This document shows, piece by piece, positions 42,464-54,754 of a DNA stretch of 64,000 nucleotides (positions within the stretch are counted from its first letter, which is position 1; the number at the start of each line of letters is the position of its first letter). The notes beneath the pieces are model-generated. The model searched no databases, was not told the DNA's origin, and saw only the letters and a list, made by a program, of their open reading frames with translations. Made by a program: the position numbers and the translations under genes. Source of the DNA: Clostridia bacterium (GTDB lineage Bacteria; Bacillota; Clostridia; RGIG6154); assembly GCA_017410375.1 (NCBI GenBank), contig JAFQQW010000053.1, forward strand, positions 62,001 through 126,000, given 5' to 3'.

Positions 42464-42497
42464 AATCCCGTCTCTTAAACAGAGACGGGATTTTTTT
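42464..42497. terminator. Bidirectional terminator, proS / oxidoreductase
   Basis: An 11-base stem (42464-42474 with 42482-42492), seven-base loop, T7 on the plus side. Confidence 0.88.
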
Positions 42498-43476
42498 AAT
42501 TTTCACATACTTTTAAAACAACCTTGCCGATGTTTTCGTTTCTCTCTAATATCGCGTGTGCCTCTTCTGCCTGCTCTATAGGCAAAATTTTGTAGATGGA
42601 AGGTGTTATTTCACCGCTTTCAATTTTCGGCCACACATTTTCCACCAGTTCGGATAAAATGAATGCCTTGAATTCGGGCGTTCTGTTCCGAAGCATACTG
42701 CCTACCAGGTGCAACCCCTTTGTAAGGAGCGGACGAAGCTGAACGGTTGTTTCAACCCCTGCAAGCGTTGAAATCACAACCCAGTAACCGCCTCTTGCCA
42801 TAAAGGGCAGGCTTTTTCCTAACGTTTCACCGCTTAAGCAGTCCATGGAAACATTTACTGCTGTTCCGTTTTCTTCTTCAGCTTTCAGAACATCTTCCAC
42901 CCTTTGCGTAGTGGAATTGATAATAACATCTGCACCCAAGTCTTTGATTTTGACCGCAATTTCATCCGACAAAACCGATGTAATGACTCTTGCACCAAAG
43001 GCTTTTGCCATGGGAATTGCCACCGATGCCAATCCGGATGCACCTGCAGGGATAAATGCAGTCTGCCCTTTTTCTAAATGTCCTTCCAAAAACAAATTCA
43101 GGTAGGATGTGGCATATGCTTCGGGAAGTGCGGAGGCTTCTTCTAACGTAAGACCTTGTGGGACAGGCATCAGCATATCGTATTTAACAGCCACATATTC
43201 TGCATATCCGCCACCGCCCAAAAGGGCGCAAACCTTATCGCCAACTTCCCATTTTTCCACAGAGCTGCCCTTTTCCGCAATAACGCCTGCAATTTCCAGA
43301 CCCATCCACTCAGGACATCCCGGAGGTGACGGATATTTTCCCTGCCGCTGCAGAAGATCGGCACGGTTTAGTGCTGCCGCGCAGATTTTAACCAACACCT
43401 CGTCTGCTTTAATAACAGGCTTTTTCACCTCACTCCAAACAAGATTTTTATTTTCATCCACAAGCATTGCTTTCAT
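42496..43476 (-). CDS. NAD(P)H:quinone oxidoreductase, medium-chain dehydrogenase family
   Basis: Zinc-free medium-chain dehydrogenase of 326 residues, closest in look to quinone oxidoreductase/PIG3. NRADLLQRQGKYPSPPG and GLEIAGVI are at the N-terminus; the cofactor loop is AGASGLASVAIPMAKAFG. No catalytic zinc cysteine is present. GAGGTGG precedes the ATG. It is the last gene of the six-gene operon read leftward from 48402, 13 bases after the epimerase-like gene. Its role there, reducing or oxidising a pathway intermediate, is inference. Confidence 0.88.
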   Translation of the reverse strand: MKAMLVDENKNLVWSEVKKPVIKADEVLVKICAAALNRADLLQRQGKYPSPPGCPEWMGLEIAGVIAEKGSSVEKWEVGDKVCALLGGGGYAEYVAVKYDMLMPVPQGLTLEEASALPEAYATSYLNLFLEGHLEKGQTAFIPAGASGLASVAIPMAKAFGARVITSVLSDEIAVKIKDLGADVIINSTTQRVEDVLKAEEENGTAVNVSMDCLSGETLGKSLPFMARGGYWVVISTLAGVETTVQLRPLLTKGLHLVGSMLRNRTPEFKAFILSELVENVWPKIESGEITPSIYKILPIEQAEEAHAILERNENIGKVVLKVCEN

Positions 43477-43489
43477 AAAACCACCTCAC

Positions 43490-44497
43490 TCAGTTCAGAT
43501 TATTATCTTTTATATATTCGTCCATGCGCTTACTCAAATCGGTATCGGGAAATTCGTAGCCCTCAGGCACTGCTTCAATCATCATTTTAAGTGCATCATA
43601 AAGAGGTGTCAATTCCTCCTGCTTCATGCCTGTTACCTCTAAAACCTTGGAATTATCGGTGATTCTGTCAAACATTCTTGCGTATTCCAACTGCCAGCGG
43701 GTATTTAATCCCATATCGGGATTTAAAATTTTCAAATAATCTTCTTTATCCACCCAAACCGCTTCAAGGCCTGCAATTTCTTTATAATAGCCGGCAATCT
43801 CCTCCCAGGTTCTGTGTTCGGACGAACATACATTATACACTTCTTTTTTTGCCTTTTCATTAAACAAAAGCTTTGCAATCATCATGGACACATCTCCTGC
43901 CCAACACAGTGTTGCAGGTTTGTCCTTTGCCTGCAAAGGCAAAACCACTTTTTTACCCTTTACCGCACGGCCGACCGTGTCATGTGCCTCTAATGTTACC
44001 AGCTGATACCGCATTTTTGAAAAGGTTGTGGCAGGGCGAACAATTGTCCAGTTATCATAGCCGGATAAAAACAAGAGATTTTCTGCTTTGGCTTTGTGTA
44101 TGCAATAATCATTAGATGCCAGAAGCTTTTCGTCGGTTGAAACATCCAAAAGTCTTGGAGATGTTTCTTTTACGGGAATTTCTTCGTTTGCATATACACG
44201 GCAGGAAGACAAGAAAATATAGTGCTTTGTATTTTCCAAAAACAGCTTGTAGTAGTGAATGAAATCCCGCTTGTGATAAATCATAAAGTCAACAACACCG
44301 TCAAAATTCTGAGAGAGTAAACCCTTCAAAAATTCCATATCCTTGGCGTTGCCTTTAATGCAGGTCACCTGCTCGTTATAAGGTACTTCATCGTCCAGTG
44401 ACACAGCTGTTACCTGATACCCCATGTCTGCCAAATACGGCACGATATACTGTCCCATCGCACCCGTAGATCCTAAAACCAATACTTTTCTTTTCAC
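43490..44497 (-). CDS. NAD-dependent epimerase/dehydratase-like protein (extended SDR)
   Basis: Extended short-chain dehydrogenase/reductase, 335 residues. The Rossmann loop GSTGAMGQYI is at residues about 8-17. The second motif is present as ...SSCRVYAN, but the usual YxxxK catalytic pair appears as YCIHKAKAE, so Tyr and Lys are kept. VRPATTF follows. The start is GTG at 44497, behind AGGAGAGG. It may act on a nucleotide sugar or a free sugar derivative; isoflavone-reductase-like atypical SDRs are an alternative. Mid-operon position. Confidence 0.85.
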   Translation of the reverse strand: MKRKVLVLGSTGAMGQYIVPYLADMGYQVTAVSLDDEVPYNEQVTCIKGNAKDMEFLKGLLSQNFDGVVDFMIYHKRDFIHYYKLFLENTKHYIFLSSCRVYANEEIPVKETSPRLLDVSTDEKLLASNDYCIHKAKAENLLFLSGYDNWTIVRPATTFSKMRYQLVTLEAHDTVGRAVKGKKVVLPLQAKDKPATLCWAGDVSMMIAKLLFNEKAKKEVYNVCSSEHRTWEEIAGYYKEIAGLEAVWVDKEDYLKILNPDMGLNTRWQLEYARMFDRITDNSKVLEVTGMKQEELTPLYDALKMMIEAVPEGYEFPDTDLSKRMDEYIKDNNLN

Positions 44498-44515
44498 AAA
44501 AACCTCTCCTTTTTC

Positions 44516-45583
44516 TTACCGCTTATATACCACTTCTCCGTTAACAATTGTCAGAACACAACTGTATCCTTTATCACATGTAATACGGCAACCCGCTTTA
44601 TCCGTCAGATCAAAACCGTCGTTTGTATGGTCAAGAACGACAATATCTGCGTTTCTTCCGACCTCTAAATAACCCCATTCCTGTTCTTTACCCAGCGCTT
44701 TTGCAGGCGTGGAAGTAACCGCACGCAATATGTCTTCTTCACACATTCCAAGATGCTTTGCAATACTCATACATAAAGTCATGCCGTATCTGCCGCCTCT
44801 TACGTAGGCGCTGAGTCTTGTAATATCGGTACTGATGATATCAGGCAACGCACCGTTTGAAATGGCTTCTTTAAAGATTTTAAAATCAGTATGTACATGT
44901 CCTGCCAAACCGGCGTCAATGAAAACGCCTCTTTTTTTAGCATTTTCAATGCACAAAAAACCGTCTTCAAGGACATTGTTTTTGCCGCCATGATACGAGT
45001 GGGTCAGGATATCCCCTTTTCTTAAGCATTCTAAAAGATCTGACATGGGAACGGGAGAATTTGATGAATGAACCATAACCTTAAGCTTCTTGCTTTGTGC
45101 ATACTCTACCGCCTCACACAAAGGTTTTATATCTTTTATATCAGAAATTAGTGTGTCGAAATACACCTTAACACCTATCGCCTTGTCGCCATACTTTTCG
45201 AGTAATTGCTCCGTATGGTCAAAACACGCTTTATTTTCCCGAAAGCTGACACCGACAAAGACAGTATTTTTCAACAAAAAGGATTCAAGCATTTCCTTAT
45301 CCCCTTTTCCGCCACCTGCATCTGCCGCCGCAGTTACACCAAAAGGAATTGTGCTAAGCTCCGGATGTACACCAAACTTATCACAGGAAATTCCACGCAT
45401 GTGCACATGTGCATCCACAAGCCCGGCAGAGACGATTTTTCCCCTTGCATCATACATAAATTCAGCTTTTTCGTCTATGGATTCTGCAATTCGATTCACC
45501 TTGCCATTCTTAGTTAAAACATCCGCAAACCAAAAGTGTTTGCCATCCCAAACCTTTCCGTTTTTTATTAAAATTTCAGTCAT
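44516..45583 (-). CDS. Amidohydrolase/deacetylase family metallohydrolase
   Basis: TIM-barrel metal hydrolase of 355 residues. The N-terminal metal site is GLVDAHVHMRG; GVKVYFD contains the lysine expected to be carboxylated; THSYHG and AGHVHTDF provide histidines, and STDITR the catalytic aspartate. This matches the EF0837/Atu3266-like deacetylase group, which often sits in sugar-acid or amino-sugar catabolic clusters. An AGGTG box fits the ATG at 45583. One base separates it from the Gfo/Idh stop. Removal of an N- or O-acyl group in the pathway is inference. Confidence 0.88.
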   Translation of the reverse strand: MTEILIKNGKVWDGKHFWFADVLTKNGKVNRIAESIDEKAEFMYDARGKIVSAGLVDAHVHMRGISCDKFGVHPELSTIPFGVTAAADAGGGKGDKEMLESFLLKNTVFVGVSFRENKACFDHTEQLLEKYGDKAIGVKVYFDTLISDIKDIKPLCEAVEYAQSKKLKVMVHSSNSPVPMSDLLECLRKGDILTHSYHGGKNNVLEDGFLCIENAKKRGVFIDAGLAGHVHTDFKIFKEAISNGALPDIISTDITRLSAYVRGGRYGMTLCMSIAKHLGMCEEDILRAVTSTPAKALGKEQEWGYLEVGRNADIVVLDHTNDGFDLTDKAGCRITCDKGYSCVLTIVNGEVVYKR

Positions 45584-45584
45584 A

Positions 45585-46574
45585 TCAACGTTCACCTACC
45601 ACTCTTAAAAGTGTTTTCTGTACTACAAATTCATGCGCATACGAATACGGATTTTCTTTTTCACCCATTACCGACAGGTAAAAATCTTTCATCATTTCGT
45701 CATATCTCGAAAGGGTCGGCACATCCTGCACATTCACTGTTTCCTGCATATTTCTGTAGGCGTTTTGCGCAATATCCGTTGTGGATTTTGTCATTTTTAC
45801 ATCAAGTTCAATCGGTTTGATTTCAACTGTTCCCTTACTTCCCATAACCGCAAAACGACGCATCCCCCAACCATTTACTTCCACCGAAAGATTGGTAATT
45901 CTTGCAATTGCCTTTTCGTATTCTAAAACCGCAAAGCAATTGTCATCTGTATGCACATCTTCAAATCCTGTTTGCTTGATAAAAGGGTACACCTTTTCCG
46001 GCTCGCCTAAAATGCTGACCACCAAATCAATCAGGTGCGACCCGAAAATATACATAGACCCGCCCTTAAACTGTTGAAGCCACTCTCTGTATGCTTTGGA
46101 ATGGTAGGTACTCATTTCCGCATCAATCTGATAAATTTCGCCTAAATCTCCGTTTTTTATCATTTGCATCAGCTTCTGTACTGCGAAATTATAGCGATAC
46201 ATATATCCCATCTGCACCGTAAGTTTTTTGTCTTTCGCTGCATTTAAAAGATTTTCGAATTCAGCAAGTGTACCGCTTGCAGGCTTGTCAATATGCACAT
46301 GCTTGCCTGCATTCACGCATTTTTGTGCAACCTTGGTTAAATTCCACACGTCACACTCCACCAAAATCGCACCACACTTTTTAATTAGCTCGTCCACCGA
46401 AAGACGTGGCAAGTCCTTATAGCAATCAAGATTTCCGCGTTTTTCAATCCATTCTTCGTTTTCCTCCGCATATCCAACCACTTCAAACAGCTCAGGGAAT
46501 TTACGCACCGCAAGCATTTTACCTTCCCCGTGGTTATGCCCGATACCAATCTGACCGATTTTGATTTTCTGCAT
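45585..46574 (-). CDS. Gfo/Idh/MocA family oxidoreductase
   Basis: NAD(P)-dependent dehydrogenase of sugars or cyclitols, 329 residues. The cofactor loop is GQIGIGHNHGEGK at the N-terminus, and the family EKP motif is HIDKPASG. The C-terminal alpha/beta domain starts near MGYMYRYN. The ATG overlaps the stop of the upstream dehydrogenase (TAATG), a classic coupled junction, with GGAGAG before it. The family includes inositol and glucose dehydrogenases and unsaturated-uronate processing enzymes; the substrate is unknown. Confidence 0.92.
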   Translation of the reverse strand: MQKIKIGQIGIGHNHGEGKMLAVRKFPELFEVVGYAEENEEWIEKRGNLDCYKDLPRLSVDELIKKCGAILVECDVWNLTKVAQKCVNAGKHVHIDKPASGTLAEFENLLNAAKDKKLTVQMGYMYRYNFAVQKLMQMIKNGDLGEIYQIDAEMSTYHSKAYREWLQQFKGGSMYIFGSHLIDLVVSILGEPEKVYPFIKQTGFEDVHTDDNCFAVLEYEKAIARITNLSVEVNGWGMRRFAVMGSKGTVEIKPIELDVKMTKSTTDIAQNAYRNMQETVNVQDVPTLSRYDEMMKDFYLSVMGEKENPYSYAHEFVVQKTLLRVVGER

Positions 46575-47578
46575 TACACATCTCTCCAATCAAACACCGT
46601 ACCTAAAGGAAATTCCGGATTATCACAAAGCTCGTTGAAAATCTCGGGAGCATTTTTGGGGTGTACAACTCTGGAGATAATCGGCTCAACCTGAATCCGT
46701 TTTGCGGAAATTAAGTCTAAAATTGCTTTACAATCATCCTGATGCGTCCAATGGTGCGGATAGGATTCAACCTTCGGACGCACAAAATTGTGTGCACCGA
46801 TAAGCTTTACACCCGGGCGATGCACCTGCTGATAGTAATCCACATCGTTATCCGAAACTCTGGTACATCCCAAAAGTGAAATTCTGCCCATCCAGGATGC
46901 GCATTCTAATGCCTGATGCATCGCTTTGGAAACACCCGTAACCTCTACACAACCGTTTATACCCTTGCCTTTGGTCAGTTCTTTTACCTTTTGCACAAAG
47001 CTTTCATCCGAAGGATCTAAAGCATAGTCAGCATCAAGCTTTAAGGCAAGATCCCGACGTGCAGGATTTAAATCCGCTACAATCAAAGGATTTACACCCG
47101 AAATCCTTAAAAACTGCGTGGCAAAAATGCCAAGCAACCCAAGTCCCATGACCATTGCCGACTCACCGATTTCCATTTCAAGCTTACGCACACCGCCAAG
47201 CCCCATGGATGCAATAATGACAAAAGCCGCCTCTAAAGAGGAAACAGAATCATCCTCGACTTTTGTAATGTCTGCCTCGGGACGGATATTGTATTTCCCG
47301 TGATTACCATGGTATACCAGTACTCTGTCGCCTACGGCGACAGACTTTACATCTTCTCCGATTGCCTCTACATAGCCGACTCCACAATATCCAAGGCTTT
47401 TCGGAAATCCTGCGCCGGTATTTGGCATTGCTAAAATATTTGCCCGTTCTGTACCGCCACTGACTACAGTGTATTCCATACGAACCAACACATCTTTTGG
47501 GTCTAATGTGTCCTTAAGGTCGGTCTGTAAAAATTCGGCCTTATGCACATCTGTAAATAAAATCTGTTTGTTTTGCAT
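46574..47578 (-). CDS. Medium-chain dehydrogenase (threonine/sorbitol dehydrogenase-like)
   Basis: Dehydrogenase of 334 residues with a GroES-like N-terminus and a Rossmann domain (GLGLLGIFATQFLRISG). The place where zinc enzymes have GICGTD reads VVSGGTERAN, so the catalytic cysteine is missing and this may be a zinc-independent or unusual member. LGYCGVGYVEAIG is the second landmark. It follows the dehydroquinase-like gene by nine bases and is coupled to the Gfo/Idh gene, so the two probably act in sequence on one substrate. Confidence 0.87.
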   Translation of the reverse strand: MQNKQILFTDVHKAEFLQTDLKDTLDPKDVLVRMEYTVVSGGTERANILAMPNTGAGFPKSLGYCGVGYVEAIGEDVKSVAVGDRVLVYHGNHGKYNIRPEADITKVEDDSVSSLEAAFVIIASMGLGGVRKLEMEIGESAMVMGLGLLGIFATQFLRISGVNPLIVADLNPARRDLALKLDADYALDPSDESFVQKVKELTKGKGINGCVEVTGVSKAMHQALECASWMGRISLLGCTRVSDNDVDYYQQVHRPGVKLIGAHNFVRPKVESYPHHWTHQDDCKAILDLISAKRIQVEPIISRVVHPKNAPEIFNELCDNPEFPLGTVFDWRDV

Positions 47579-47587
47579 AAAAATCCC

Positions 47588-48402
47588 TCACATAAATTTT
47601 TTCATGTTATCTATAATCGTCTTGGCAGTCTTTAAATCGAGTTGCTCCATGGTACTGCTCTCCGAATAGCGGTCAACACAAAAAGCAATCTGTCCACCCA
47701 AAATGGGATTCAAGATTCTGGACAAAACACCCGTTTTACCGCACACATGATAGCTTATAGGTGTTTTGACTTCTTTTTTAAGCACCGTCATCGTTTTTAC
47801 GCATTCCCAAAGGTCTTCTTCCGATTCGGAAAGAGTTACTATCTTAAGGATATCCGGCTTTCGCTGTTCTAAAACAGCGCCAAATCTACCACCTGGTCAC
47901 AATTCATACGAACAAAGGGATGACAGGATAAAAGAACTTCCGCGCCCTTTTGATGCACCTTTTCAATCAACTCGCATTGCTTTTCTATAATTGCTTCGTC
48001 GGTTACCACTTCTCTTGGACTATCCTTTGTAAAGGAATATTTATTTTCTCCATAAAATCCGGTTTTGGATTTTGCATCAAAGGTGTACCCTTGCATATCA
48101 ATGCCTGCAACACCTGCATCCACTGCACGCAAAAATAAATCTTCTCTTTCTTCTTCCGAATAACCCGATTCTTCCCAATTATAGCCTTTGTTGTAGTTTA
48201 AAGCTAAAATCGGAAGCTTTGAACCGTTTACAATCGCTTTTAAAGTATCAAGGTCTGTATTTTCCAGGCACGACAGATGCAAGTCCACCATGTCTGCACC
48301 ATCAAACAAGCAGTTTTTGATTTCAGCAATTGCTGCCTTTGCACTTTTCTCACGCACAACGCCTGCAAGTGCAGGTGCCGCGATTTCAGATAATTTTTTC
48401 AT
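47588..48402 (-). pseudogene. Type I 3-dehydroquinate dehydratase-like protein, frameshifted
   Basis: The first gene of the operon is split in two frames. From ATG at 48402 (behind AAGGAGG) 177 residues run to a TAG at 47871-47869; a second frame continues from about 47886 to 47588. Together they give a TIM-barrel protein like type I dehydroquinases: GADMVDLHL at the first strand, LSCHPF with the conserved histidine, PDILKIVTLSES with the candidate Schiff-base lysine (only in the second frame), and an end near GGQIAFCVDRYSE. The first active-site glutamate strand reads GIDMQG, so it is divergent. The two frames are both open only over about 15 bases. It is either a real mutation or a sequence error; programmed shifting is unlikely since no slippery heptamer is seen. 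Confidence 0.8.
47862..47879. repeat. Perfect inverted repeat at the frameshift site
   Basis: CGCTGTT-CTAA-AACAGCG: two perfect 7-base arms and a 4-base loop. The premature stop lies in the loop (47869-47871), and the repeat sits inside the only interval where the frame can change. Confidence 0.85.
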
Positions 48403-48421: not shown

Positions 48422-48450
48422 ATTTTATCAAAACAGAAAACCGAAAACAA
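48422..48450 (-). promoter_or_regulatory. Weak promoter of the six-gene catabolic operon
   Basis: Minus strand TTGTTT (48450-48445), 17-base spacer, TAAAAT (48427-48422). The poor -35 and the inverted repeat directly upstream suggest activator dependence. Confidence 0.45.
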
Positions 48451-48482
48451 TATCAAATATGATGTTTTTATCATTTTTGATA
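48451..48482. promoter_or_regulatory. Long inverted repeat, candidate operator for AraC (2)
   Basis: TATCAAATATGAT (48451-48463) and ATCATTTTTGATA (48470-48482) are inverted copies matching at 12 of 13 positions, six bases apart. The repeat lies immediately upstream of both divergent promoters. Confidence 0.6.
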
Positions 48483-48490
48483 CTCTATTA

Positions 48491-48540: not shown

Positions 48541-49323
48541 TTGCAATTAGATATTTTATCAAATTTGGTCATCCAAAAGGTATACTCCACTACAACACTC
48601 TATAGCGAAGAAAATCGAAAAGCCAAAAGAGTGAACCGCGAGAAATGGGCGGTCATTATAAAATATGAGGGTGAAACCGTATACACATCAAGAGGCAGCA
48701 CTTATATATCAAACGCAAATAATCTTATAATTCTGCCAAAAGGTTGTTCGTATGAATGGAGCTGCAAACGCTCGGGACATTTTTCGGTTATTGAGTTCGA
48801 GAGTGAAGCAACGTGTGATACTATTTTTTGTTTCCCTGTTCAAAACAGTGACAAAATTCTAAAGCTATTTAAGGAGCTTGAATACAAAAGAACCTTAAAA
48901 AAGCCCTTGTTTGAGGCAGAAAGCATCCGGGATACCTACTCTATTATCCTTTTACTCACACAAGCTCTGCAAAGGAAATACTTACCCACAAAAAAAGCGG
49001 ATAAGCTGACCCCTGCCCTGGACTATATGGCTAAAAACTATAATTTACCCATTACAAATGACAAACTTTCCTCCCTCACCGGCCTTTCTACCGTATACTT
49101 CAGAAAATTATTTACTGAAGTTTATGGCATATCTCCTATTACATATGTACATAAGCTTCGGATAAAGAAAGCCAAAGAAATGCTTGGAAGCGATTACGGC
49201 AGTATAACCAATATCGCTGAGGCATTGGGTTATTTAAACATTTATGATTTTTCAAGGGCTTTTAAAAAACATGTAGGCGTTTCGCCTTTAAAATACGAAA
49301 AAAACATGCACAAAGTGCGATAA
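48541..49323 (+). CDS. AraC family transcriptional regulator (2)
   Basis: Regulator of 260 residues: N-terminal cupin-like sensing domain (NNLIILPKGCSYEW), C-terminal double helix-turn-helix (ITNDKLSSLTGLSTVYFRKL and ITNIAEALGYLNIYDFSRAF, then VGVSPLKYE). The start is TTG at 48541 behind AAAGGAAG. It is divergent from the dehydroquinase-like/dehydrogenase operon and is its likely regulator. It ends at a terminator shared with the convergent giant secreted protein gene. Confidence 0.92.
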   Translation: MQLDILSNLVIQKVYSTTTLYSEENRKAKRVNREKWAVIIKYEGETVYTSRGSTYISNANNLIILPKGCSYEWSCKRSGHFSVIEFESEATCDTIFCFPVQNSDKILKLFKELEYKRTLKKPLFEAESIRDTYSIILLLTQALQRKYLPTKKADKLTPALDYMAKNYNLPITNDKLSSLTGLSTVYFRKLFTEVYGISPITYVHKLRIKKAKEMLGSDYGSITNIAEALGYLNIYDFSRAFKKHVGVSPLKYEKNMHKVR

Positions 49324-49412: not shown

Positions 49413-52400
49413 TTACTGTTCTTCCGGATACAATGTCAGCTCAAACTTATGTGTTTGTGCTTTGTCGTTGTCGTAATCCTTTAGTGGTGCATTTTCTGTC
49501 GGAAGCACAAGCAAGGTGATATTGCCGTCTGCTCGCATTTCGTTTCCGGCAACCGTAGATTCAAAGGGAATGTCAGCATTTCCGTTTACGCCTTTAAGCT
49601 TACCCTTTACAGTTAAACCTTTCAAAATGCTTTCCTTCACATCAAAGGGGAATTTGTCAGTCGAGATAATTAATCGGAAGTAACCGCCACCTAATCCTTG
49701 ATAGGTACATGTCATTTCGAAGGGGTCAAATTTTAAAGGCTGTTTGATATTGGTTAAAGTAATTTCGGGTGCCGTGCCTGTTTGTTTTAAAGTCTTAAGC
49801 GTTCCGCCACCTGTTTTTTTAACTTCACCGTCTGCCGTTGTTACGGTAACGGTATAAGAAATGGGCTTTGTTACATCTTCAACCTTAATAATGGTTTCAA
49901 AAGGCCATCTGTCCACAACTACATTTTCTTTTTTGCCGTCTACGGTGTATTCAAAGGTAACGGATTTTGTATTTTCTGCTTTTTCATCAGTATATACATA
50001 TGCATAGTATGCATCGTCATTAAACTGCAGAATGTATCCCTTGCCGTTATCATGCTCGGAAACGGTTTCACCAAGCGCGTTGGAATAGGTGTAATCGGTT
50101 GCCCAGGAAGGTTTCTTTACAGACGGAATATCAAGTACAACCGTCTGAATGCTACGCACCGGAACAGAAACCGTAAACGCACCGTTTACCACATCAATTT
50201 CGGTTTTGTTGCCCGAAGCATCGTACAATGTTGCTTTACCGCTGTAGCCTGCACCACCCTCAATTTTTTCACCAAGGGTAACGGTTTCGGTTAAGTTTTC
50301 CTGCGCTTCATTCATCAGTGCGATGGCAAGCTTGCCGTCTTTTCTGCCACAGATGTAGTCAAGATTTACATTGCCGTTTGTATCAATGATTCCGCGGTCA
50401 ACCCAAAGATAGAAGCCGTCTTCATCATAGAACCTGCCGGGCTTGTGACCATAACAATAGTTGCTGAAATACGCATATCCGGACTGGAAAGTGCTTTCAA
50501 AATCAATTTTACCGTTTGAACGCTCCCAGGCAGAGTTTACAATATAGTCCTGAAGCATGCCTAAGAACACCGGGATATGATGCCAGTAAATAGAGGTATA
50601 GTCAGGTCCCTCATACGGGTATTCCGGCTTCATCTGATGTGTGATATATCGGTCGATATAGTAACCCGGATACGTACCGAATCTGCCAATCATGGCGTTG
50701 TGTGCCATCGTTTTGAAATAATCTTCACCGGTATATTCCGCAAGTCTTAAAAGCGCACCCGTCCAGTTGTTCATGGTAATGACACTCCCCATACCCGGGG
50801 TACGGGCATGCTCTGTACCAAACCCTGCTCTTGCAGGAAGCCACCCGGGAACGGTTTCAGATTCAGGTTTTGCCATTTCACGGGAGCTTGTATATTCTCC
50901 TAACTTATTGCCGGGACGCCATTGGTGGTCGCCGTGCCAGAAAAATCCAGCACCGTCAGCGGGAAGAGGTCTGCCATAGGCTTTCTCGGATTCAATTTCA
51001 TATTCAGCAGTCGCATAATCATTCTGATAGCCGGTAGTCCATGTGCCGGTTGCAAGTAAGTACGCAGCTTCCTTTGCATGGTCAAGGTATTTTTGCTCAC
51101 CTGTAAACTCGTATGCATTTAAAAATGTGTCTACCATAATGATATAATCCACATACACAAACACATTCACAAAATGCTTGTCACGTTTTTCACCCGTGTT
51201 GGGGTTATCCAGAATATATGCTTCTGCCTGTTTGATAACCGCTTGTTTATACACATCATTTTCACTGTATTTATAGCGAGCAATGTTGCTGTCCAAATCG
51301 TCCGATGCGCTTTCGTTTAACGCATACTGCATTAAGTACGGAATTCTGCCCTGGCTCATTTCATACAGACCGCCATAAACGTTTGCGCCAAAGCCTGCAT
51401 TAACTGTACCGAGTGTGCCGGATTTATACATAGCATCGCCTTCGCCCTGCACAGTCATGTGATAGCTTCCGCGTGTTAGACTGAATGCAATAGCAGGAAT
51501 AAGTCTTGTTTCCAAGAATTCTTCATCGTCCGTCCAGAGATACACCTGCCCAAATGCCTGGGGATTGGAAACGGATACAAGATTTTTGCGCTCCATATTG
51601 TAATTGCCCATACCCTTGGCATCCCAGCCACCGTAATAATCGTCTTTAAGCAGGTCGATTGTGTTATAAAGTGCATCATTTAACGAAGTGTAGTAGTTGG
51701 TACGCAAATCCGAGAAGTTGTACATATCTTCTGCGATATGCATATACGTTTCTTCCCAGTCATTGAAATCGTTCACCAGACGATATGCGAACCTATAAGT
51801 CTCGCCTGCTTTGCGGTTTGCACCTTCTGTTCCAAAAAGCGGTGCCATAATCTGAGGACGAACCAACTCATCTACCGTGCGGAAAGTAATGCCATAGGTA
51901 GAGGTTGATGGATACACAAAATCCTGTCCTACCATTTCAGGCTCGATTACAAAGCCGGAGGTCAGCATTTTACCCGGTGTTTTCACATTATTGTCAGCTG
52001 TATAATGGAAGGTCGTCATAGGCGTAAACATGTTGGTTTCGGCAAAGAGAATATCCTTTTTAGGCACAGCATGTTTTACAAACATCAGGGGTGCTGTAAC
52101 CGTATCAAACTGCTCTTCGGTTACGCCATCGCCACTATAAATCAGGAAAGAATACGCACCATCCTGCTTAAAGGTAGCAGAAAGCTCTGCTTTGGGATAG
52201 GATACAAAATCGTCAAACCCATAGGTTGTGGTAGCCGTTGTATACGGATTATCATAAGCTAATACAATTTTGCCGTCCTCTGTTTTTTGGAAATCGGAAG
52301 CAAGCAGATAGCTTGAAACACCTGCTTTATAAAACGTGTTTAAGTTAACCGCCATTTCCTGACCGTCTTTTAAGATGGTCTGGGTAAAAAGATGTGAATT

Positions 52401-54659
52401 GAAATTGGAATCGAAATCGTTACCTGCATAAGAGGATTTATGAGCCGATACAAGCATGTAGCCCGTTTCCTCTGTTCTGTCCTTGATTTTAACCCACTGT
52501 CCATTGTGCTTTGCGTAAATTTCATCCTGCACAAAGGTGCCTTTCGGCCCGTTTACCTGATAAAAGGAAAGCTTGTAGCTGTCGTTTTCAATGGATTCGG
52601 ATTTTATAACCTCGCCCGCTTCTTTTGCCCAGGACGGATAACTCTCGGGATAGAATTCCGCAAAGGGATCATAACCGGAAGCGACTTTTAACATTTCATT
52701 CTTGTCATCCGAGGGAACATAATCCAGGTCATCTGTAATAAACACACCACCGCAACGGGCATAGAATGCAGAGGTGTCAATCATGGACACTTTATGTGCA
52801 CCCGCTTTAAATTCATAAGTACCTGCCTTTTGCCAGGAAAAACCTTCTTTGCCATGGGCACCGAATTTTACATCCGAACGCACGCCATCCACTTCCGCAT
52901 GGAAGAAACGGGTACCGGGCTGATTGGTTGCATAGTCTTTGGAATTAATCCATACATTATAGGTGCCGTCTTTCGGGATACTGAAGGATGCGGTTGCAGG
53001 TTTTAAATCCAAAGTACTTACATCTGCGGATTCGCCCAATGTGTTGCCGCGAATGTAATCTGCTTCGTACACCCATGTACCCAAATCCGAGAAATTCTGC
53101 GGTAAAAGTAAAATTGCCTGCGGAACAGAATCTGCTACAATAGAAACTGTCTGGGTCGCATCGTCCCAGGTTACGGTTGCACCATATGCTTCCGAAACAA
53201 AACGGAGCGGAACAAGTGTTCTGTCGTTGATAAGCACGGCTGACTGGTCAATTTCCACCTGCTCACCGTTGATTCTTGCGATATTACTGCCAATGCTGAC
53301 CGATACAACACGGCTGTTACGGTTACCGGTTGCGGTTTGTGTTTCGTCATTCCAGCTCACCGTCGCACCAAGTGCTTCAAAAATTGCGCGCAAAGGTACC
53401 ATGGTTCTGTCGTTAATCAACACAGGGTCTACGTCAAACTGCATGTATTCCCCATTAAAACGGACCGCAATTTCGCTGTCCGGTCTTTGTTGTTCGGAAG
53501 ATGTATCAATGACAACCTTGGAAGCATCGTAACGGTTGTTTTTCAGCCAGTCTGCTAAAATTGCATTTTCCCAGGGCGGCGTGAAATCGTTGTCATCGGT
53601 TACAAGTAACATATCCAATCTGCCATACGCGCCGGTATGCTTAACAGACAAATTGTGCTCCCCTGCCGTAAGCTCGATTTTACCTGCCTTTTCCCATTCC
53701 CAGCCATCTTTGCCATGTACGCCCACAAGACTCGGAAGCGTTGTGCCGTCAACCGAAACAGTAAAATGGCGACTGCCGGAATTGGAGGGTACATCCTTTG
53801 TTCTTGCCCAAACGGTATATATGCCTGTTTTGGGGACAGTAAGTGTCATGATACCTTCCTGATCCTTTTTACCACCACCGTGAAAATAAGGACCTGCAAG
53901 CTGCGAAAGTGTATCCGTTACTAAAAATGTATCAATATTCTCTAAATTTTCAGGTGAAATATTAAAGTAGTTTTTATCTGCCTTTAGTGTGTATGCACTC
54001 GGCGTACGTTCCGGGTCATCAGGTGCAACCGTAATTTCTTCCGGTTTCACCTCAGCCTTTACTTCTTCCACCTTGATTTCGGTTAACTCCACATCTAAAG
54101 CGGATGCAGGGGTTTTAACAATCTTTGCGCGCTTGTCCTTTAACCCTTTTTTAATTTCGTTCGGGTCTTCGGGTGGCACAAAGCCTTCTTCGGAAGAAAT
54201 TGCAAACGCTTCTGCACGGGCATAGTATTTTGTAACATCCGAAACATAAAGAGAATGTGTTCCCTTTTCTAAAGAAACCGTTCCTGCTTTTTCCCATGCC
54301 CAGCCGTTTTTGCCGTTTTTACCCAGCATGGTAGAAAACAGTTTTCCGTCAAAGCCTGCTTTGAAATTACGTGTTCCACCAGTAGTATCACTGGAGCGAA
54401 CCCACAATGTAAAAGCGCCATCTTCCTTAACAGTAAACGAAGCAACAGCAGGCGCTGTTTCTCCGTTTGCAGTTAAGCCCCGAAGCACATTGAAGGTAGA
54501 ATTCAGTTGCGGTTCAACCACAACCCAGCTTCCGGGATTGTCCGAAAAATCGTCTGCGCTGAAATAGTATGTTTCCCCTGTTTTCGCATACACCGAAAGC
54601 GGTAATACGAAATTAAAAAGCATACTGACAGCAAGGAATAAACCTAAGATTTTTTTCAT
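49413..54659 (-). CDS. Giant secreted modular protein, probable polysaccharide-degrading enzyme
   Basis: Exported protein of 1748 residues. Order: signal peptide (1-25); module 1 (about 30-163); a Lys/Glu linker; module 2 (about 228-362); two CuAO_N1 repeats (about 398-510; NDRTMVPLRAIFEALG, NDRTLVPLRFVSEAYG); module 3 (about 516-650); a beta-rich region (about 670-960) shared with the 765-residue protein at 11754; a long aromatic-rich helical region (about 965-1400) that looks like an alpha/alpha toroid of glycoside hydrolases or polysaccharide lyases; and C-terminal beta domains. Each module carries GSW/GTW, GxRxF and HGKDGWxWE-like motifs. I recognise no named catalytic family, so the enzyme activity is inference. 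AAAGGA fits the ATG at 54659. It is divergent from AraC (3). Confidence 0.82.
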   Translation of the reverse strand: MKKILGLFLAVSMLFNFVLPLSVYAKTGETYYFSADDFSDNPGSWVVVEPQLNSTFNVLRGLTANGETAPAVASFTVKEDGAFTLWVRSSDTTGGTRNFKAGFDGKLFSTMLGKNGKNGWAWEKAGTVSLEKGTHSLYVSDVTKYYARAEAFAISSEEGFVPPEDPNEIKKGLKDKRAKIVKTPASALDVELTEIKVEEVKAEVKPEEITVAPDDPERTPSAYTLKADKNYFNISPENLENIDTFLVTDTLSQLAGPYFHGGGKKDQEGIMTLTVPKTGIYTVWARTKDVPSNSGSRHFTVSVDGTTLPSLVGVHGKDGWEWEKAGKIELTAGEHNLSVKHTGAYGRLDMLLVTDDNDFTPPWENAILADWLKNNRYDASKVVIDTSSEQQRPDSEIAVRFNGEYMQFDVDPVLINDRTMVPLRAIFEALGATVSWNDETQTATGNRNSRVVSVSIGSNIARINGEQVEIDQSAVLINDRTLVPLRFVSEAYGATVTWDDATQTVSIVADSVPQAILLLPQNFSDLGTWVYEADYIRGNTLGESADVSTLDLKPATASFSIPKDGTYNVWINSKDYATNQPGTRFFHAEVDGVRSDVKFGAHGKEGFSWQKAGTYEFKAGAHKVSMIDTSAFYARCGGVFITDDLDYVPSDDKNEMLKVASGYDPFAEFYPESYPSWAKEAGEVIKSESIENDSYKLSFYQVNGPKGTFVQDEIYAKHNGQWVKIKDRTEETGYMLVSAHKSSYAGNDFDSNFNSHLFTQTILKDGQEMAVNLNTFYKAGVSSYLLASDFQKTEDGKIVLAYDNPYTTATTTYGFDDFVSYPKAELSATFKQDGAYSFLIYSGDGVTEEQFDTVTAPLMFVKHAVPKKDILFAETNMFTPMTTFHYTADNNVKTPGKMLTSGFVIEPEMVGQDFVYPSTSTYGITFRTVDELVRPQIMAPLFGTEGANRKAGETYRFAYRLVNDFNDWEETYMHIAEDMYNFSDLRTNYYTSLNDALYNTIDLLKDDYYGGWDAKGMGNYNMERKNLVSVSNPQAFGQVYLWTDDEEFLETRLIPAIAFSLTRGSYHMTVQGEGDAMYKSGTLGTVNAGFGANVYGGLYEMSQGRIPYLMQYALNESASDDLDSNIARYKYSENDVYKQAVIKQAEAYILDNPNTGEKRDKHFVNVFVYVDYIIMVDTFLNAYEFTGEQKYLDHAKEAAYLLATGTWTTGYQNDYATAEYEIESEKAYGRPLPADGAGFFWHGDHQWRPGNKLGEYTSSREMAKPESETVPGWLPARAGFGTEHARTPGMGSVITMNNWTGALLRLAEYTGEDYFKTMAHNAMIGRFGTYPGYYIDRYITHQMKPEYPYEGPDYTSIYWHHIPVFLGMLQDYIVNSAWERSNGKIDFESTFQSGYAYFSNYCYGHKPGRFYDEDGFYLWVDRGIIDTNGNVNLDYICGRKDGKLAIALMNEAQENLTETVTLGEKIEGGAGYSGKATLYDASGNKTEIDVVNGAFTVSVPVRSIQTVVLDIPSVKKPSWATDYTYSNALGETVSEHDNGKGYILQFNDDAYYAYVYTDEKAENTKSVTFEYTVDGKKENVVVDRWPFETIIKVEDVTKPISYTVTVTTADGEVKKTGGGTLKTLKQTGTAPEITLTNIKQPLKFDPFEMTCTYQGLGGGYFRLIISTDKFPFDVKESILKGLTVKGKLKGVNGNADIPFESTVAGNEMRADGNITLLVLPTENAPLKDYDNDKAQTHKFELTLYPEEQ

Positions 54660-54685
54660 GTCCATCCATCCTTTCTTTGTTTTTA

Positions 54686-54703
54686 TTTTAACACATGTTA
54701 AAA
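54686..54703. promoter_or_regulatory. Palindrome overlapping the giant gene's -10 region
   Basis: TTTTAACA-CA-TGTTAAAA, two perfect 8-base arms. On the minus strand a TAAAAT (54690-54685) overlaps the left arm, so a bound regulator would block or alter transcription of the giant gene. No good -35 was found for that gene. Confidence 0.5.
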
Positions 54704-54754
54704 ATCGAATATACAAAAAAATAGTTATCAAATATAAAAAAATAGCGATTTGTG

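Follow-up and report, generated by a model that had tools for sequence, protein, structure and literature searches.

A conserved, single-operator operon of gut Clostridia that may join ring oxidation to Schiff-base elimination

We examined a compact cluster of six genes in a 64,000-nucleotide stretch of DNA from a Clostridia bacterium (the window, a section of contig C53 in a genome of 2.77 Mb assembled in 69 contigs). The genes run on the minus strand from 48402 to 42496, beside a divergent AraC-family gene. We find that this operon is real, conserved and specifically regulated, and we describe here a new two-part operator just upstream of its first gene. With evenly balanced confidence, we propose that this is a dedicated operon for catabolism, controlled by a single local AraC protein, in which a ring would be oxidised to a ketone, a group removed by Schiff-base beta-elimination, the resulting enone processed, and one hydrolytic step carried out. 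The features of the locus are as follows.

48541..49323, plus strand: AraC-family regulator, divergent from the operon (PF12833/PF00165 above cut-off)
48449..48483, minus strand: operator, two tandem TATCA...TGATA-like sites in the divergent promoter region (upstream alignment)
47588..48402, minus strand: type I dehydroquinase-like protein, FRAMESHIFTED at ~47,870-47,880 (PF01487 in both parts)
46574..47578, minus strand: MDR-family dehydrogenase (PF00107/PF08240)
45585..46574, minus strand: Gfo/Idh/MocA oxidoreductase (PF22725/PF02894/PF01408)
44516..45595, minus strand: amidohydrolase-superfamily metallohydrolase (PF07969/PF01979)
43490..44497, minus strand: extended SDR, epimerase-like (Epimerase/NmrA; PF01370)
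42496..43476, minus strand: NAD(P)H quinone oxidoreductase, PIG3 subfamily (TIGR02824)

The initial annotation had described a six-gene, AraC-linked operon, and the spacing, the Pfam families and five intact genes bear this out. In gene order, the junctions are a 9-base gap, a 1-base overlap, an 11-base overlap, an 18-base gap and a 13-base gap; the 11-base overlap, between the Gfo/Idh and amidohydrolase genes, becomes a 1-base gap with the next start codon. What that annotation missed is that the first gene is frameshifted and lies in two frames, its N-terminal part at 48402-47872 and its C-terminal part at ~47875-47588, with the break at ~47,870-47,880. The two parts match PF01487 at 22.9 and 44.9 bits (cut-off 22.2), and 27/27 homologues read through the break point in an open frame, in a set that was chosen as open frames and from which broken copies would be missed. 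The five genes downstream, the AraC gene and the operator are all intact.

To collect relatives, genome contigs were searched with the lead MDR protein as the key. This gave 32 loci, from which two of Staphylococcus (L040 and L041; 27% identity over part of the MDR) were dropped and 30 kept, so that the MDR count of 30/30 is by selection. The MDR orthologues in these loci are 56-77% identical over the best segment. By their labels, sixteen of the relatives come from sheep, goat, deer or water buffalo hindgut, one is labelled 'Lapin', and 13 have no animal named. The AraC gene was present in 25 of the 30 loci, each time in the same divergent position, along with Gfo/Idh (25), an intact dehydroquinase-like gene (24), the quinone oxidoreductase (22) and the amidohydrolase (20); an extended SDR was found in 15, a classical SDR in 14, and either of them in 22. 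Several loci end inside the operon (e.g. L011, L022, L030 and L036), and these counts are therefore lower bounds. Because all six families of the window occur together in 11/30 relatives and at least four of the six in 23/30 (the MDR by selection), the association of this gene set is beyond chance. The initial annotation had left open whether the same set would be found in other genomes; relatives do carry it, together with its regulator and a common operator, and the view that it is not conserved in any relative is refuted.

The usual order is AraC, dehydroquinase-like, (classical SDR), MDR, Gfo/Idh, amidohydrolase, SDR, quinone oxidoreductase, (EamA), and in L015, L018, L020 and L032 the classical SDR fills the slot before the oxidoreductase. 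Flanking genes are not common to the loci; outside the operon, only an EamA permease recurs in as many as 9 of them. An earlier statement that the operon has no transporter thus holds for this window but not for the family, since an EamA-type permease ends the operon in 9/30 relatives. Pairwise gene distances correlate over 21 gene pairs (r 0.29 to 0.77), and for 19 of these pairs the observed correlation was reached by at most 21 of 999 permutations. In a class-wide sample, a profile of the dehydroquinase-like protein at 1e-40 matched 12/391 genomes, in seven families.

An alignment of the DNA upstream of the first gene revealed a strikingly conserved element of two similar tandem sites, which in the window is GTATCAAAAATGATAAAAACATCATATTTGATATT at 48449-48483 (minus strand). 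Allowing up to 6 mismatches to a two-spacing consensus, we found it in 26/30 loci, once per locus and ahead of the first gene; the same scan did not find it in L027 and L034, and L030 and L036 start inside the operon. The weakest match (L018) had 6 mismatches. For ten shuffled control loci the best scores were 7, 8 or worse, and a related operator expression had no match in 3x shuffles. The low mismatch numbers are partly circular, because the consensus was built from these sequences; the uniqueness and position of the element are not. The 2.77-Mb genome holds exactly one such site, from which the AraC protein appears dedicated to this operon, and mapping of a wider AraC regulon was given up when the genome scan with the operator pattern returned the operon's own site alone. 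Where the dehydroquinase-like gene is missing (L015, L035), the operator stays before the MDR gene. We therefore regard the element as the putative dedicated local operator of the AraC protein. One locus without the operator, L027, is labelled Verrucomicrobia and carries a classical SDR and an MDR 71% identical to that of the window, possibly through a binning error or transfer.

For the dehydroquinase-like protein, 22 of 27 available intact sequences were aligned. A structure model of an intact orthologue, L010, built with this alignment reached a predicted local distance difference test score of 94.4, and its best PDB matches are type I dehydroquinases (E ~1e-14). With E. coli AroD (type I 3-dehydroquinate dehydratase) as the yardstick for 15 aligned homologues, Lys170, His143 and Arg213 are kept in 15/15 and Gln236 in 14/15; the 11 operon members and paralogues in the alignment retain all four. 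We take Lys170 to be the Schiff-base lysine of AroD and His143 to have a catalytic role. The likeness to AroD in fold and in these residues contrasts with an identity of just 15-20% for operon members and bacterial paralogues, with the operon context, and with the loss of E46, R48 and R82, none of which is kept in eight canonical-type homologues (L010, L016, L021, L029, L033, L034, L037 and L039). These three residues presumably serve AroD in binding dehydroquinate; two distant paralogues have a Glu at the E46 column. The NCBIfam aroD cut-off is missed (36.1 bits vs 139.3; 36.4 for the C-terminal part in the window), and a type II dehydroquinase encoded on contig C22 (182.4 bits) is the housekeeping dehydratase. 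Because the fold and residues are kept, the aroD cut-off fails and a separate type II enzyme exists, the protein probably works like a Schiff-base dehydratase yet is not AroD; we accordingly rejected identity with housekeeping AroD. The earlier label of a Schiff-base-type dehydratase is thus backed by the fold and the kept lysine and histidine. We also considered Q104 of L010 as a stand-in for AroD Glu86 and rejected it, as the alignment with E. coli AroD does not put Q104 at that position and the Glu86 loop is unalignable.

More distant homologues also lie beside dehydrogenases. In the same genome, contig C59 carries a dehydroquinase-like paralogue (L072, 10515-11282; 27% identical to L010) with a classical SDR gene on either side and an AraC gene next to this group, and the same SDR-flanked arrangement occurs in L073 (genome G003). 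Homologues from archaea and rhizobia share 23-30% identity with L010; in Mesorhizobium they adjoin annotated SDRs together with a quinone oxidoreductase, and in Halobellus an SDR. On a Halobellus limi plasmid (L076, 7240-9870), two dehydroquinase-like genes surround an SDR gene near galactonate dehydratase and MaoC-type genes; both are annotated 3-dehydroquinate dehydratase, and one is without Gln236.

The quinone oxidoreductase is the most conserved gene of the set (mean pairwise identity 0.81) and meets the PIG3 model TIGR02824 (355.9 bits, cut-off 296.8). It alone among the core enzymes meets a curated NCBIfam cut-off, and the earlier proposal of a new sugar or cyclitol pathway accordingly stays plausible, if unproven. 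The Gfo/Idh, MDR, SDR and amidohydrolase proteins have broad-family matches and meet no curated NCBIfam cut-off. The amidohydrolase scores below a PRK09237-type cut-off (207.1 bits vs 371), and its HxH, K, H, H and D residues, which we take to be metal ligands, are invariant in a 22-row alignment. The extended SDR has a fold closest to epimerase-type SDRs, with Y131 and K135 invariant in 16 sequences, and gave no match in a PDB sequence search. A Lys and a His are invariant in the Gfo/Idh alignment, and this protein falls short of the model for inositol 2-dehydrogenase IolG (TIGR04380; 58.0 bits, cut-off 355). Inspection by eye only did not show the usual zinc ligands in the MDR. Paralogous modules that lack the amidohydrolase carry a metallo-beta-lactamase-fold gene (L042, L070) or a GDSL-type hydrolase gene (L070) instead, and this substitution suggests that a hydrolytic step belongs to the recipe.

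A second MDR-Gfo pair without a dehydroquinase-like gene occurs on contig C21 of the same genome (L046) and in L045, where three GH20-family genes follow. Next to the operon in the window, at 49413-54731 on the minus strand, lies a gene for a secreted-looking protein of 1772 residues with a copper-amine-oxidase N-terminal-type domain, otherwise without a clear match and with none in a PDB sequence search. A homologue of this protein (34% identity, 660 bits) adjoins the pair on C21.

We infer the reactions, their order and the kind of substrate as follows. The MDR and/or the Gfo/Idh enzyme would oxidise a small polyhydroxylated ring, converting one of its hydroxyls into a ketone, with which the dehydroquinase-like enzyme would form a Schiff base and eliminate the beta group, either water or an O-linked group. 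The PIG3-type oxidoreductase may then reduce or turn over the resulting enone, and the SDR may reduce or epimerise a neighbouring position. The amidohydrolase would remove an acyl group or open a cyclic amide or ester.

This scheme has published counterparts. As far as the available parts of two papers describe it, levoglucosan and O- or C-glycosides are opened by oxidation, elimination, hydration and reduction, with sugar-phosphate-isomerase-type barrels (PMC7676230, PMC10628242). The levoglucosan operon lgdA-lgdB1-lgdB2-lgdC of Bacillus smithii, whose LgdB1 and LgdB2 are annotated as sugar phosphate isomerases/epimerases, is likewise compact, with a dehydrogenase that makes a ketone, a second enzyme that eliminates the beta group and another that reduces (PMC7676230, in part). 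It differs in that the candidate eliminase here has a type I dehydroquinase fold with a Schiff-base lysine and is joined by an amidohydrolase, an SDR and a PIG3 oxidoreductase. The Agrobacterium O-glycoside and gut PUE C-glycoside operons share the oxidation-elimination logic, a TIM-barrel eliminase and a Gfo oxidoreductase, but their eliminases are described, in the portion available, as having a Mn-dependent active site (PMC10628242), and the words Schiff and dehydroquin are absent from the main text of that paper. The MDR here also resembles a protein annotated in PLSDB as a bi-domain oxidoreductase, matching part of such proteins at 28-33% identity (the MDR part only was compared), whereas MDR and Gfo/Idh are two separate genes in this operon. 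We know of no dehydroquinase-like gene in the Thermotoga maritima inositol operon TM0411-TM0416. Compared by chemistry rather than gene families, that operon shares successive oxidation of a polyol ring, with 2-keto-myo-inositol and diketo-inositol as intermediates in the part of the account available (PMC5931981). Literature searches for this gene set found no paper combining its elements, those on quinate use by gut bacteria found nothing on it among the papers listed, and one on the amidohydrolase Atu3266 found nothing. The operon would be a variant of the oxidation-elimination kind, and we see a modest chance that it holds a new enzyme class.

Several observations weigh against a pathway built on oxidation and Schiff-base elimination. 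The gene assigned to elimination is frameshifted in this genome, is cut to ~60 residues in L013, and was undetected by tblastn in L015, L035 and L027; being lost, truncated or broken in several members, it is not indispensable. The Gfo/Idh gene is absent from L020 and L033 though their contigs continue, and since it and the dehydroquinase-like gene are each missing in some loci, the route would be modular or redundant. The SDR is absent from half and the amidohydrolase from a third of the loci, partly through contig ends. The distance correlations of the Gfo/Idh with the dehydroquinase-like gene and of the quinone oxidoreductase with the SDR are weak (58 and 49 of 999 permutations), and shared ancestry alone could produce all of the correlations. 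In the strain studied here, either the elimination step has been lost, or the distant C59 paralogue carries it out, or an error of assembly has produced the frameshift. Decay of the operon, with a real frameshift and remaining genes that no longer form a working pathway, would fit the broken first gene and the truncated or absent copies in L013, L015, L035 and L027. We nevertheless consider it unlikely: the regulator and its putative operator are intact, as are the five genes downstream, L015 and L035 keep the operator ahead of the next gene, and an assembly indel is possible because the genome is a 69-contig assembly. A further broken copy within the operon family is the MDR gene of L015 (10001-11005), which is split into two open frames.

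Other readings keep parts of this chemistry and change the substrate. The Gfo/Idh enzyme might make a 3-keto glycoside, from which the dehydroquinase-like enzyme, as a metal-free lyase, would eliminate the aglycone from C1, as in the levoglucosan and C-/O-glycoside operons. The published sequence of oxidation, elimination, hydration and reduction with Gfo-type enzymes, as far as its partial accounts go, would suit this, as would the sub-threshold similarity of Gfo/Idh to models for glycoside 3-dehydrogenase, UDP-GlcNAc 3-dehydrogenase and levoglucosan dehydrogenase, the GH20-family genes in the vicinity of L019 and of the paralogous L045 pair, and the large secreted protein family that adjoins both MDR-Gfo modules of the genome. 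By Pfam, however, the six genes include no sugar-phosphate-isomerase-type barrel; there is no hydratase candidate, and no glycosidase neighbour recurs across loci. We rejected the glycosidase link as weak, no family outside the operon being found in more than 9 loci, where it is the EamA permease, and this glycoside route seems rather unlikely. Somewhat improbable, too, is a cyclitol route for inositol, quercitol or a quinate-like ring, in which the dehydroquinase-like enzyme would take the place of IolE and dehydrate the oxidised ring before the metallohydrolase opens it. Dehydroquinase chemistry does act on a cyclohexane ring, the Thermotoga inositol operon, in the part of its description available, runs via keto and diketo intermediates, and two inositol-family models are matched below threshold, inositol 2-dehydrogenase by Gfo/Idh (58.0 bits, cut-off 355) and scyllo-inosose 3-dehydrogenase by the MDR (64.5 bits, cut-off 450). 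Yet these inositol-family cut-offs are far off, E46, R48 and R82 of AroD are not kept, and Pfam assigns none of the six genes to an IolB/D/J type.

A non-phosphorylating pathway in which keto-deoxy sugar acids or deoxyuronates are the substrates of the dehydroquinase-like enzyme strikes us as quite unlikely. It would account for the neighbourhood of the dehydroquinase-like gene in L067, a locus with the same operator, where a KduI/IolB-family gene and SDRs are found, and for the surroundings of the distant Halobellus and Mesorhizobium plasmid homologues, namely galactonate dehydratase, glycerate or D-lactate dehydrogenase and a fumarylacetoacetate-hydrolase-family gene. KduI, however, appears in a single locus, where gaps set it apart; the homologues from archaea and rhizobia share just 23-30% identity with L010, and the operon is without kinase and aldolase genes by Pfam.

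Returning to the oxidation and Schiff-base elimination scheme, this operon of grazing-animal gut bacteria probably breaks down a small plant- or glycan-derived ring compound by means of an enzyme repurposed from the aromatic amino-acid pathway. More tentatively, it may represent a second, metal-free route for breaking a sugar or cyclitol ring after oxidation, in which an offshoot of type I dehydroquinase, encoded in its own dedicated operon in Clostridia of the herbivore gut, performs Schiff-base beta-elimination; distant homologues of this enzyme neighbour dehydrogenases in haloarchaea and rhizobia. If so, the pairing of oxidation with beta-elimination, so far described with sugar-phosphate-isomerase-type barrels (Mn-dependent where studied), would gain an independently evolved Schiff-base version, and proteins labelled '3-dehydroquinate dehydratase' in certain genomes of gut bacteria, archaea and rhizobia would carry the wrong name. 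The single conserved operator offers a direct handle on this biology, as the molecule sensed by the AraC regulator would name the substrate.

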